A stretch of 64,000 nucleotides of DNA from Nitrospiraceae bacterium (GTDB lineage Bacteria; Nitrospirota; Nitrospiria; Nitrospirales; Nitrospiraceae): positions 1 to 64,000 of the forward strand of contig DASPUC010000043.1 of NCBI GenBank assembly GCA_035623075.1, written 5' to 3'. A program made the translations under genes and the position numbers. Below the pieces are notes generated by a model. It saw nothing but the letters and a program-made list of their open reading frames with translations, was not told the DNA's origin and searched no databases. This document shows positions 54,530 through 59,239 of this stretch, in pieces (the first letter of the stretch is position 1; each line of letters opens with the position of its first letter).

Positions 54530-57500
54530 TTAAGAGCATCCACTTGTGGCACCACAGGTATCGCACTTGAGACAAGTCCCATTCCGCACCATCGTAAACT
54601 GCTTACACTCTGTGCAAGGATCCCCTTCATAGCCTTTTTGACGAGCAATCTGTACTGCTGTGAGCGTCACCGTTTCCCGCTTGATTTCGACCTTGTGCGC
54701 AACATTCCCGTTCCCGTGTCCATGGCCATTGCCCTGGTGTCGTGAGGTCACGTTCTGTCTGGACGGGAACAGATCGGTGCTGATTGAGGCCGATGCCAGG
54801 GTTTCCGGAGTTGCTTCCTCCTCCATGCATTCCGGATCTTGCTCATCCTTCTTCATCGAATCCATCCGCAGATCTTCCTCCTGGACCTGCGCCAGATCGA
54901 ACCGATCAAGATAGGTTACGGCCAGTTCGCGGAAAATATAGTCAATGATCGAAGTCGACATCTTGATCCGATCGTTGAGTTTCACCGGTCCGTTAGGCTC
55001 AAATCGGGTGAATACGAAGGCTTCAACAAACTCCTCCAACGGCACTCCGTGTTGAAGACCAAGGGAAATCGCGATGGCAAAGCAGTTCATCAGACTGCGG
55101 AAGGCGGCGCCTTCCTTATGCATGTCTAAAAAGATTTCGCCCACTGTTCCGTCTTCATATTCACCGGTACGGAGGTAGAGTTTATGTCCACCAATGACCG
55201 CCTTTTGTGTATAGCCATTCCGGCGTGTTGGAAGCGGCCGACGCTTGGCCAAGTATCGAACCAGAACCCGCTCCGTGATCTTTTCCACCGCTGCAAGGAC
55301 TTCGGGAGCAGCTTCCGCTGTCTTTCCGCCGTCCGTTGATGCGGAGAGGGGTTGACTCAACTTCGACCCGTCGCGATACAACGCAACCGCTTTCACCATG
55401 GATTTCCAGGCAAAGAGGTACGCCGATTTAACATCCTCCAGCGTCGCATCAGCAGGCATATTGATGGTCTTGCTGATCGCGCCGCTGATGAACGGCTGAG
55501 CGGCAGCCATCATTCGGATATGGGCGTCGACAGGAATGTATCGTTGGCCGATGCGGCCGCAGCGATTCGCACAATCAAAAACGGGCAGATGCTCGGCCTT
55601 GAGATGCGGGGCACCTTCGACCGTCATCGTTCCGCAACAGTAGTCGTTCGCCGCCGCAATTTCTTCTTGCGTGAATCCCAGCGTCTTCAGCATATTGAAG
55701 TTGGATTCATTCAGCTGCGCATCCGTGAGCCCGAGCTTCCCTCGGCAGAACTCCTCACCCAGCGTGTACTTATTGAACGTAAATTGAACTTCGAAGGCTT
55801 GTGCCAGCCCGCTCTCCATTCTGGCCAGAGCAGCATCATCAAATCCCTTTTGTCGTAACGTCTCGTGGTTGATGAACGGCGCACCTTGAAGGGTCTGGCG
55901 TCCCACGCAGTAGTTCACGATCTCGCGGATCTGAGATTCGTCATAACCCAACGATGCCAGCGCCGGCGGTAAGCTTTGGTTGATAATCTTAAAGTAGCCA
56001 CCGCCCGCCAACTTTTTGAATTTCACCAGTGCAAAATCCGGTTCGATACCGGTGGTATCACAGTCCATGACCAACCCGATCGTGCCAGTGGGAGCGATGA
56101 CCGAGACTTGCGCGTTTCGAAACCCATAAGCAGTACCAAGCTCCAGAGCGCGGTCCCATGCGCGCCTCGCAGCAATCAGCAGTTCCGGCGGACAATGTTC
56201 CGCATGAATACCCATTGGCTTGATCGTCAGGTTTTCGTATTCCTCATCAGGAGCGTTATAGGCTGCTCGACGATGGTTGCGGATCACCCGGAGCATGGCA
56301 TCGCGATTTTTCGCATAGCCGGGAAACGGCCAGAGCTCAGCCGCCATTTCAGCCGATGCCGCATACGATTCACCAGTCATGATGGCAGACAAGGCCCCGC
56401 AGATCGCTAACGCTTTAGGAGAATCGTAGGGAATTCCCTGCCGCATCAGAACCGTGCCCAAATTGGCGTACCCAAGACCGAGCGTTCGGAAGTGGTAGCT
56501 TTTTTCCGCAATCGAGCGGCTGGGGAACGAGGCCATCAACACGCTGATTTCCAACACAATCGTCCAGAGACGGACGGCGTGTCGGAAATTGTCCAATTCA
56601 AAACCACCATCAGAGGTAAAAAACTCTCCGAGATTCAGTGAAGCCAGATTGCACGCCGTATCGTCGAGGAACATGTATTCCGAGCACGGATTCGACGCAT
56701 TAATTCGGCCATCCTCCGGACAGGTATGCCATTCATTGATCGTACTGTCGTATTGGGTGCCGGGGTCCGCACAAATCCACGCAGCCCAGCCGATGCGATC
56801 CCACAAATCATGTGCCTTGACCGTTTTGGACACCTTCCCATCCGTTCGTCGCTTCAATTGCCAGTCACCATCAGAATCCAATGCAGCAAAAAACTCATTG
56901 GGAATGCGGACGCTGTTGTTCGAGTTTTGGCCTGAGACTGTCTGATAGGCCTTGCCATCCCAATTAGTGTCATATTCGTGAAATACAAAATGGGTGAATC
57001 CCTGTTGAGCATAGGCAAACATCCGCTGCACATAGGCCTCTGGAACCGCATCGCGTCTCGCTGCCGCTAGAGCTTCCTTCAGGATCGGGTTCTGCTTCGC
57101 GTTAATCTCAACCTTCATCTGCCCGGCACTATCGACCACGTGGCAGGCCTTGAGGACAGCATTCAGACGTTCCGCGCAGATCTTGGACCCTGTCACCATG
57201 GCTGCGACCTTTTGCTCTTCAATTACCTTCCAATCGATGAACTCCTCGATATCCGGGTGATCGAGATCCAAACAGACCATCTTGGCAGCACGCCTGGTCG
57301 TTCCGCCTGACTTGATGGCGCCGGCCGCGCGGTCACCGATACGAAGGAACGACATCAAACCAGATGAGCGACCTCCTCCAGACAACGACTCACCGTCCCC
57401 GCGCAGTTTCGAAAAATTTGTTCCAGTTCCGGATCCGTACTTGAACAAGCGTGCTTCCCGCACCCAGAGGTCCATGATTCCATTTTCGTTGACGAGATCG

Positions 57501-58069
57501 TCTTCGATCGACTGAATGAAGCAGGCGTGTGGCTGCGGATGTTCGAACGCGTTGGTGGCCTTCACGACCTCGCGAGTTTTCGGGTCTACATAATAATGTC
57601 CCTGCGCTGGTCCATTGAGCCCGTATACATAGTGGAGACCTGTGTTGAACCATTGGGGCGAGTTCGGCGCGGCCATTTGATGTGCCAGCATGTAACAGAG
57701 TTCGTCATGAAAGGCGTCGCTGTCTTCCGGGGTCTTGAAATACCCGTAGGCCTTTCCCCAGTGAGTCCAACAGCCTGCCAATCGCTCGAACACCTGTCGC
57801 GCATCGCGCTCGCCTCCTAAAACCGGCTTGCCGTCATGTTCGAGAATCGGGCCGCCGTCTTCACCACGGAGCGGAACGCCAGCTTTCCGAAAGTACTTTT
57901 GCGCAAGAATGTCGATGGCCAACTGAGACCAGGGTTCCGGAATATCGATCTGATCGAGCTTGAAGACAGTCGAGCCGTCGGGATTCCGAATCTCCGAGGA
58001 ACGTTTCACGAACGCCAGGCCTTCATAGGGGCTTTGTCCGCGACGCGTAAATCGTCGTTCTATTCTCAC
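54530..58069 (-). CDS. nrdJ: Vitamin B12-dependent (class II) ribonucleotide reductase
   Basis: 1179 residues from GTG 58069, preceded by GAGGAGGGTCGATC. Barrel core with the N-terminal redox Cys ([11 protein letters not shown]), the radical Cys and Glu in [15 protein letters not shown], and the phosphate loop [27 protein letters not shown] domain ([22 protein letters not shown]) and a C-terminal Cys-rich redox tail (PCTECKQFT...CLKCDTCG) complete the long form. It reduces ribonucleotides using adenosylcobalamin, with no O2 or iron need. The 338-bp upstream region holds an NrdR-like box, a promoter and DnaA boxes. No B12 riboswitch was recognised. Confidence 0.96.
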
Positions 58070-58210
58070 GATCGACCCTCCTCAAGCAGTATGGTTGACT
58101 GGCCTATTGCGCCCTGTGGGACTGAAAGCTGAATAGAGCACTGTTTCAATCAAGTAGTCTCTTTCGCCATGAGATGTTTCGTGACCTGAACCAAAGCCCG
58201 GTAGCGGAGT

Positions 58211-58257
58211 AGCTACATATAGCTATTGGAATTAATTGTCAACACTAAATATTGTGG
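58211..58257 (-). promoter_or_regulatory. nrdJ: nrdJ promoter with NrdR-like box and second palindrome
   Basis: ACACTAAATATTGTGG (58242-58257) agrees with the NrdR-box pattern at about 14 of 16 positions. On the minus strand TTGACA at 58242-58237 lies next to it, and a -10-like TATGTA falls at 58219-58214 (17-base spacer). A perfect AGCTA-CATA-TAGCT palindrome (58211-58224) overlaps the -10, centred 32 bases from the first box, the usual three-turn spacing of paired NrdR sites, although it matches the box sequence poorly. NrdR would repress nrdJ when dATP is high. Confidence 0.6.
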
Positions 58258-58263
58258 GTTCTC

Positions 58264-58346
58264 TGTGGAAAGAGAGGAAAAGCTGTGGATAACTATAATG
58301 CCGGACACAACGCCGTTCGACACGAATTTTGCTCTACTTATCCACA
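58264..58346. promoter_or_regulatory. DnaA-box cluster upstream of nrdJ
   Basis: Two perfect DnaA boxes in opposite orientation: TGTGGATAA (58284-58292, reverse of TTATCCACA) and TTATCCACA (58338-58346). A third near-match, TGTGGAAAG (58264-58272), differs from TTWTNCACA at one position. They lie upstream of the nrdJ promoter, suggesting replication-coupled control as for E. coli nrdAB. Too few sites and no AT-rich unwinding repeat to be called an origin. Confidence 0.65.
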
Positions 58347-58407
58347 AATTCGCGACTGGCTTGGAACTGTTTTTTCCGGATAGATGATCTGTATGCTGAT
58401 GGTGATG

Positions 58408-58779
58408 TCAAAAAGTCAGGCGCCCAAGTCTTAACACCGCCTCGTCGACACCCTTGAGTGGAATAAAGTGCCCGCCGATACCAAGCACAACAATGTGAAC
58501 ATCCAGGACCTTGGTTTCAAAACGACAGAGCAACCCCCAATTTCTGCGAACTGTGTTCGGCCGTACCACTCCTTGGATAAGTTCCTGCCCATGGGTTCGA
58601 AAAATGTTCTGTATGACGGTTCGTTCTCTTTCTGGCGTCGAGGAATCCATCCGCTCGATTGCCTGACTCAATTCTGATTGAACAAAAGAAAGATATTGTT
58701 CCGTGGTCGGATTAGTCAGCGCAAGAACGACCGCCGCTGAAAGCCCGATGACAAGACACAGTAATTGCAGAAGATTCAT
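58408..58779 (-). CDS. DUF4359-like small exported or membrane-anchored protein
   Basis: 123 residues from ATG 58779, preceded by TTAGGAGACAGG. An N-terminal hydrophobic helix (LLQLLCLVIGLSAAVVLAL) is followed by TNPTTEQYLSFVQSELSQ, the entry typical of DUF4359-type proteins, and a C-terminal strand region with VVLGIGGHFIPLKGV. Function unknown for the family. It runs toward the nrdJ control region and is divergent from a small membrane protein gene. Confidence 0.72.
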   Translation of the reverse strand: MNLLQLLCLVIGLSAAVVLALTNPTTEQYLSFVQSELSQAIERMDSSTPERERTVIQNIFRTHGQELIQGVVRPNTVRRNWGLLCRFETKVLDVHIVVLGIGGHFIPLKGVDEAVLRLGRLTF

Positions 58780-58853
58780 CCCCCTGTCTCCTAACGTACC
58801 CCTGCCTCCCCCCAAATGCTCCTCTGTGCTGACTCCTCGTCAGTCCACTCTGT

Positions 58854-58870
58854 TTGACAAAGTATTGTCA
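58854..58870 (+). promoter_or_regulatory. TGACAA-N4-TTGTCA palindrome overlapping a TTGACA element
   Basis: TGACAA (58855-58860) and TTGTCA (58865-58870) form a perfect inverted repeat that overlaps TTGACA (58854-58859). Located between divergent small genes, it looks like a repressor operator on a -35 element; the matching -10 (around 58877) is weak. Confidence 0.45.
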
Positions 58871-58942
58871 CATGATTAGCCTACCGCGCAACAAGGCGTC
58901 CCGTAATATGTCTGCCGTATTACCCTGAGCAGGAGGATAGCT

Positions 58943-59239
58943 ATGTTCGTATGGAGCAAGCGTCTCGTTATGACACTCTTAGGACTTTTTGTGCTCTTCC
59001 TGGGAATATTCCTCGTGCATGGTGCCCCAGACACGGCCAGCGGCCTCAAAATTCACACGACGCGATGGATGGCACTCAATTACGCGGGGTTGGTGATCTG
59101 GGTGTTTGTGTGGATGATTGACCAAGCACGCATGCGAGCGCAGAACTTCTGGGTCTGGCTCGTCCCCTTCCTCCTGGCCCCTCTACCTACATTAATGCTG
59201 TTCGTTCTCTATCTCCAGCGTAGACTGAAGCCGTCATAA
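58943..59239 (+). CDS. Small three-helix membrane protein
   Basis: 98 residues, AGGAGG nine bases before ATG 58943. Helices at about 8-27, 43-62 and 69-92, with a charged HTTRW and DQARMRAQNF between them and a basic end (LQRRLKPS). No family recognised. It converges on the AmpG-like gene with 6 bp between stops. A palindromic operator-like site lies about 75 bases upstream. Confidence 0.68.
   Translation: MFVWSKRLVMTLLGLFVLFLGIFLVHGAPDTASGLKIHTTRWMALNYAGLVIWVFVWMIDQARMRAQNFWVWLVPFLLAPLPTLMLFVLYLQRRLKPS

Follow-up and report, generated by a model that had tools for sequence, protein, structure and literature searches.

Control of ribonucleotide reductase genes by DnaA is established for the class Ia operon nrdAB of E. 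coli and has been suggested for B. subtilis and Caulobacter (PMC8203912, PMC11317965). In these sources, DnaA activates or represses E. coli nrdAB according to its bound nucleotide and its level (PMC8203912, PMC12176259): DnaA-ADP or a low amount of DnaA-ATP activates, a high amount of DnaA-ATP represses, and DnaA seems to set the level of expression rather than its timing (PMC8203912). The DnaA boxes of nrdAB include a double box with a 3-bp spacing, TTATCCACAaagTTATGCACT, and binding of DnaA was also detected by ChIP-seq upstream of nrdD, the class III reductase gene of E. coli (PMC11317965, available part). The DARS core is described as three DnaA boxes, of which I and II are opposed (PMC8682772, available part).

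Here we analysed a stretch of 64,000 nucleotides (the window) from a Nitrospiraceae genome, which carries a class II reductase gene, nrdJ, with DnaA boxes and NrdR boxes in its upstream region (Table 1). In Streptomyces, as Grinberg reportedly found in 2006, NrdR binds a class II reductase promoter; nrdJ would share this control, and DnaA boxes are not mentioned in the available material on that promoter. The locus resembles E. coli nrdAB in that its reductase promoter combines NrdR boxes with upstream DnaA boxes, but it belongs to another class and a distant lineage, and its boxes are mostly a lone reversed distal box with a variable proximal cluster. It shares with E. coli nrdD a DnaA site on a reductase gene outside class I, whereas nrdD is class III and has a double box. 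The boxes are opposed as in the DARS core; unlike those of DARS and datA, they are tied to a promoter and to NrdR boxes, and their distance from dnaA is not fixed. We consider it likely, from the sequence features described below, that the nrdJ region is a promoter under dual control by DnaA and NrdR, laid out as in E. coli nrdAB but placed on a class II gene. In the literature covered (titles and abstract openings, with most subscription papers outside the coverage), neither a DnaA box on nrdJ or another class II reductase gene nor a CBASS operon with NrdR was described.

Table 1. nrdJ and the elements of its control region, numbered by position in the window
Feature	Position	Strand	Basis
nrdJ, class II (adenosylcobalamin-dependent) ribonucleotide reductase, 1179 aa, GTG start	54530..58069	-	NF005736, 1946.7 bits (cut-off 1737); TIGR02504, 579.7 (cut-off 399.95)
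Distal DnaA box, perfect TTATCCACA, direction opposite to nrdJ; begins 104 bp above first T of -35	58338..58346	+	
Proximal DnaA box, perfect TTATCCACA, same direction as nrdJ; -50 from -35	58284..58292	-	
Candidate weak second half of double DnaA box, TTTTCCTCT (6/9), 2 bp from proximal box	58273..58281	-	Sequence
DnaA near-match, CTTTCCACA (7/9)	58264..58272	-	Sequence
NrdR box 1, CCACAATATTTAGTGT, one-base overlap with -35	58242..58257	-	Motif match; box-1-like motif in relatives
-35 hexamer, TTGACA	58237..58242	-	Promoter-module pattern match, 58213-58242
NrdR box 2, TAGCTATATGTAGCTA, covers likely -10 (TATATG 58216-58221 or TATGTA 58214-58219)	58210..58225	-	Sequence, conservation

The preliminary description had reported two perfect boxes and one near-match in non-coding DNA beside nrdJ, and we found them so: all three fall in the interval from the nrdJ start (58069) to the end of the neighbouring ORF (58408), with 45 bp between the two opposed perfect boxes. 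This adjoining ORF is a DUF4359 ORF and was present in all 32 named family loci tested, so that gene replacement could not separate the boxes from the ORF at nrdJ itself. The NrdJ protein of the window is at most 90% identical to those of records titled Nitrospira. Within 57900-58950 there was no Rfam match up to an E value of 1, a cobalamin riboswitch included, and B12 riboswitch control of nrdJ was dropped on this account.

Two NrdR boxes, absent from the preliminary description, are placed around TTGACA (58242-58237) at 32 bp centre to centre. In the NrdR regulon, 16-bp boxes lie 15-16 bp apart over the polymerase site with whole helical turns between their centres (PMC12176259, PMC12051234, available parts). 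The nrdJ promoter has this layout, with two 16-bp boxes, a 16-bp spacer and the polymerase site overlapped, and one match to nrdR over the cut-off was found in the window's genome (TIGR00244, 198.9 bits).

Ten DnaA boxes with at most one mismatch, the two perfect ones included, were found in the window against 8.73 expected. As one-mismatch boxes occur there at chance frequency, the near-match by itself carries little weight, and the box number in the window was dropped as evidence. A genome-wide count, proposed in the preliminary description, gave 19 perfect boxes over 3.39 Mb, compared with 14 occurrences of the reversed word, and confirmed the nrdJ pair as unusually close: it is the sole case of two perfect boxes less than 1 kb apart, and random placement of 19 boxes would give 0.006 pairs within 62 bp. 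The next closest pair is 1.15 kb apart, and the second box of that pair precedes the dnaA start codon by about 40 bp. The chance level of one-mismatch boxes is what would favour reading the nrdJ boxes as chance matches, but that reading is already refuted by their conservation and spacing in relatives, and we give it practically no weight.

For the comparison with relatives, 600 bp upstream of nrdJ were collected from 122 of 174 family relatives, giving 123 regions with the window; 42 of the 174 were left out because the nrdJ match was partial, at a contig end or not listed. Family membership of named loci was set by NrdJ identity, and the upstream regions of the named relatives were aligned before the wider set of 122. 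In an anchor-free search the exact box was found in 115 of the 122 relatives, always within 420 bp of the start, and was absent within 600 bp of the start in seven; the word read backwards was found in none. The conservation upstream of nrdJ that the preliminary description had proposed to check is thus borne out.

A motif resembling NrdR box 1 (at least 13 of 14 positions) stands beside TTGAC in 121 of the 123 upstream regions and was used as the anchor; two loci lacking it (L202 and L213) were excluded from anchored counts, which leaves 121 aligned promoters including the window. Since TTGAC served as anchor, the conservation of the -35 in the aligned sets is partly by construction. The exact box occurs within 180 bp above the -35 in 115 of the 121 aligned promoters (114 of 120 relatives). 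Under the same test, 300 permuted words scored 0.2 of 121 on average and 22 at most, and the reversed word scored 0. With one mismatch allowed the box is found in 120 of 121, but a permuted word likewise reaches 120, so only the exact counts are telling. When aligned relatives identical to the first set are left aside, 95 remain, and 92 of these carry the exact box.

The two boxes are not equally conserved. The distal box is exact in 110 of 121 aligned promoters, lying at -102 to -105 in 107 of them and at -116, about one helical turn further out, in three. The proximal (forward) box is exact in 20, of which 15 also have the exact distal box and five do not, and neither box is exact in six. 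The inverted boxes of the preliminary description therefore stand as far as the distal one is concerned, but not as a pair, both boxes being exact in only 15 promoters. Conservation mostly concerns the distal box, reversed and about 104 bp above TTGACA, and the proximal box varies more.

An early conservation table of 36 promoters (distal box 0.99, -35 1.00, NrdR box 1 0.77, spacer 0.37, above 0.31) was set aside as biased: its promoters had been selected for carrying, at -104, a box with no more than one mismatch, and NrdR box 1 and TTGAC had served as anchors. The values for the box, the -35 and NrdR box 1 are thus partly a product of this choice. A non-redundant set of 53 promoters was thinned on neutral DNA with the box windows excluded. 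The neutral DNA of this set averages 29% identity, which rules out close kinship alone as the cause of conservation, and that explanation was dropped. The best distal score was 9/9 in 46 of the 53 promoters, 8/9 in three and 5-7 in four; four control windows of equal width in the same promoters never exceeded 7/9. NrdR box 2, which was not used for anchoring, had a mean pairwise identity of 0.80 versus 0.29 for neutral DNA in these promoters. For the proximal box, a set of 49 non-redundant promoters gave a best score of 9/9 in 12 cases and 8/9 in 18.

Outside the family, as delimited by NrdJ identity, the exact box was found within 700 bp in only three of 46 nrdJ upstream regions (L080 at -177, L034 and L049 at about -452). 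Because the box is nearly absent there, these sequences indicate that the DnaA box at nrdJ is a family-level trait and not an old feature of nrdJ. NrdR-like box pairs occur in several out-of-family regions, e.g. L030, L034 and L035, and the DnaA box thus looks to have been added within the family.

Some records deserve separate mention. The nrdJ gene at L042:3001-7662 and ten other family nrdJ genes have frames of about 1500-1620 aa, with an insert near NrdJ residue 180. The L042 insert, the only one scanned, matches LAGLIDADG_3 and, below the cut-off, Intein_splicing; from these matches, the NrdJ insert is probably an intein with a homing endonuclease domain. The start of the insert-bearing NrdJ was found in nine of ten genomes; in six of these, TTGACA follows an exact distal box at a distance of 103-105 bp; L210 has only an exact forward box at -29, and L211 and L212 have only one-mismatch boxes. 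Two titles do not fit their sequences: L021 (CP058702.1, titled Parvibacillus calidus) has an nrdJ 82% identical to that of the window together with its promoter, and L073 (titled as a Klebsiella pneumoniae MAG) has an nrdJ 60% identical to it. Contamination or mislabelling is the probable cause.

Perfect DnaA boxes in non-coding DNA are also what a replication origin, or part of one, would contain, and the preliminary description had proposed a GC skew plot to exclude an origin here. The single dnaA match over the cut-off is located at C24:289231-290544, on a contig other than that of nrdJ, with boxes just upstream. In all 12 one-contig relatives nrdJ lies 661-2342 kb from dnaA, i.e. 0.28-0.99 of half a chromosome (circular chromosomes assumed, and the nrdJ starts of G037 and G131 placed from the promoter). 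The GC skew of the window has no clear turning point at the boxes. With dnaA on another contig, and nrdJ far from dnaA in the one-contig relatives, the site does not look like the origin; dnaA location, distances and skew largely refute that idea, and we regard it as extremely improbable.

Domain IV of DnaA aligns to E. coli DnaA chain 1j1v with an E value of 7e-23, with GGKDHTT for GGRDHTT. We take 1j1v to be the complex of the DnaA domain with a DnaA box, and the DNA-contacting residues are presumed likewise. In vivo, E. coli DnaA prefers boxes 2-3 bp apart, a closely spaced double box being found at 15 of 16 ChIP regions, and it is present at 13 of 32 consensus boxes, according to the available part of the report (PMC11317965). 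In this family, the 3-bp-spaced double box TTNTNCACA-NNN-TTATCCACAG was found in 65 of 175 genomes and its reversed control in none of 175; from these counts the family has this DnaA-type double-box grammar. At most nrdJ promoters, however, a second half-box is weak. At the nrdJ distal box the strict 3-bp double is found in G027, G039 and G041 only.

The partner score of the distal box was reached by seven of 500 permutations, which is weak support, and a double distal box was not kept as a rule. Of the 30 promoters in which the -50 box is good, 25 show an 11-bp register at the proximal box (the search windows allowed 7-15), with modest support by permutation, and the mean box score is raised at -29, the position of the near-match, which is suggestive by permutation. 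A four-box DnaA array from -50 to -19 is likewise just suggestive: its score was reached by one of 400 permuted words and that of its middle two boxes by eight of 400, and the -19 position overlaps NrdR box 1. Elsewhere in the window's genome we observed intergenic 3-bp double boxes, TTGTTCACAgagTTATCCACAg and TTGTTCACAgacTTATCCACAg, at L242 (C53:7770-7791) and L227 (C2:5323-5344). They have the form that E. coli DnaA binds at datA and purH and are candidate DnaA-regulated or DnaA-resetting loci.

A regulator other than DnaA might recognise this 9-mer upstream of nrdJ. In most promoters the distal site is a single box, and E. coli DnaA usually prefers a pair (PMC11317965, available part); DnaA binding at nrdJ is itself a prediction from sequence. 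Against this, conservation falls on the exact DnaA consensus sequence, which also occurs upstream of dnaA here and close to dnaA in several relatives, and domain IV of DnaA is conserved; we judge another regulator unlikely.

The promoter module was also found away from nrdJ. The pattern TTGACA-N9-21-GCTATATGTAG matched in 109 of 175 family genomes; these counts are lower bounds, the pattern missing variants such as that of genus g13. Copies away from nrdJ exist in at least eight of the 175 genomes (G000, G045, G057, G069, G070, G110, G117 and G128); G046 and G168 were dropped from this list, both matches being nrdJ itself. All eight copies keep the distal box with 0-1 mismatch at -104 or -105, five of them exactly, and six keep the proximal box with 0-1 mismatch at -49/-50. 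Identity to the own nrdJ region is 97% in G070, 88% in G000, 89-97% in G117, 82% in G057 and 74% in G069; the G045 copy aligns over 45 bp only and the G110 copy not at all, G128 being outside this comparison. Judged by identity, the G057 and G069 copies would be older than those of G070, G000 and G117, and the latter, being recent (88-97%), say little about selection.

The copy in the window's genome (G000, C3:8089-8228; L228, L264) lies between asnS and an IS1595 transposase gene. It extends from the distal box as far as NrdR box 2, and a predicted terminator-like hairpin comes immediately after it; the copy may make a short RNA or nothing. The G070 copy comprises 283 bp matching its own nrdJ upstream DNA, including the last 28 codons of the DUF4359 ORF; this ORF is mostly kept at the G117 copy, which lies at a contig end and may reflect assembly, and was not found at the other six. 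The scanned neighbours of the G069 copy were unremarkable.

In G070 (L268) and G045 (L269), which belong to different genera, the module is located directly before homologous CBASS-type operons. PADLOC revealed a CBASS HNH-SAVED effector, a cyclase and an E2 in the G045 operon; the G070 cyclase is 62% identical to that of G045, and the neighbouring genes look alike. A conserved first ORF of 57 aa (a CPCG/CPKC protein) starts 79 and 82 bp after the first -35 base in the two genomes. The other close cyclases in the 175 genomes, in G041 (60%) and as a fragment in G034 (65% over 66 aa), lie 1.8-1.9 kb downstream of nrdJ itself, and more distant ones (35-42%) in G104, G054 and G006 are located elsewhere. 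Tyrosine recombinases (Phage_integrase) were found within a few kb of the copies at L272 (G110), L265 (G117) and L266 (G128). A candidate defence gene, PDC-M48B, follows the G110 copy, and a weaker candidate, PDC-S45, follows the G057 copy.

These copies suggest a transferable promoter cassette. We might tentatively speculate that in the Nitrospira family the nrdJ region is a transferable DnaA/NrdR cassette repeatedly picked up by mobile elements and anti-phage operons, and that the CBASS operon would then be under the dNTP and initiator signals that also switch DNA-precursor synthesis; it might, for example, rise when a phage drains the dNTP pool. Alternatively, elements may use the nrdJ promoter as an integration site, with the copies as by-products.

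The boxes could also store or reset DnaA, by datA-like titration or DARS-like reactivation, with nrdJ merely as a neighbour. Their opposed orientation recalls the DARS core, with boxes I and II facing each other (PMC8682772, available part), and nrdJ lies at 0.85 or more of half a chromosome from dnaA in nine of the 12 one-contig genomes. The distance from dnaA nevertheless varies over the whole range given above, the spacing of the distal box is fixed to the nrdJ -35, and the copies elsewhere carry the NrdR promoter with the boxes, a promoter which the search pattern required. The probability that we leave to such a storage or resetting role is small.

Dual control of nrdJ remains the reading that we prefer. 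It draws on these observed features: the sites are present and conserved, they keep a fixed spacing to the promoter motif, the genome has dnaA and nrdR genes, and the region is not the origin. The preliminary description had proposed a class II nrdJ under DnaA control like that of nrdAB; the conserved boxes and the non-origin position support it, and binding and sign are predicted. In the proposed scheme, NrdR would bind the two boxes around the -35 and -10 and shut the promoter when dATP is plentiful, and DnaA would bind the distal high-affinity box and the weaker proximal cluster just above the -35. As the DnaA sites are above the -35, activation is favoured, and low DnaA or DnaA-ADP would most likely help RNA polymerase; with abundant DnaA-ATP, the complex may spread along the weak boxes toward NrdR box 1 and the -35 and repress. 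This scheme of activation and repression is carried over from E. coli nrdAB, and by the same analogy DnaA binding, the sign of its effect, nucleotide switching and the link to initiation are expected at nrdJ. Reductase expression would then track both the dNTP pool and the initiator.

In five of ten family genomes checked, the window's genome not among the five, nrdJ is the sole match to PF02867 (class I/II large subunit), so that its control would affect a large share of the dNTP supply there, as far as this class I/II model covers it. The window's genome has a second ribonucleotide reductase large-subunit gene, with a 603-aa frame, at G000:C5:77455-78861. The copies elsewhere bear on another question open to testing, whether a defence operon has borrowed a reductase promoter. 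With a strongly conserved DnaA box on a class II gene of a distant lineage, the wiring between dNTP supply and the initiator would prove to be a recurrent solution.
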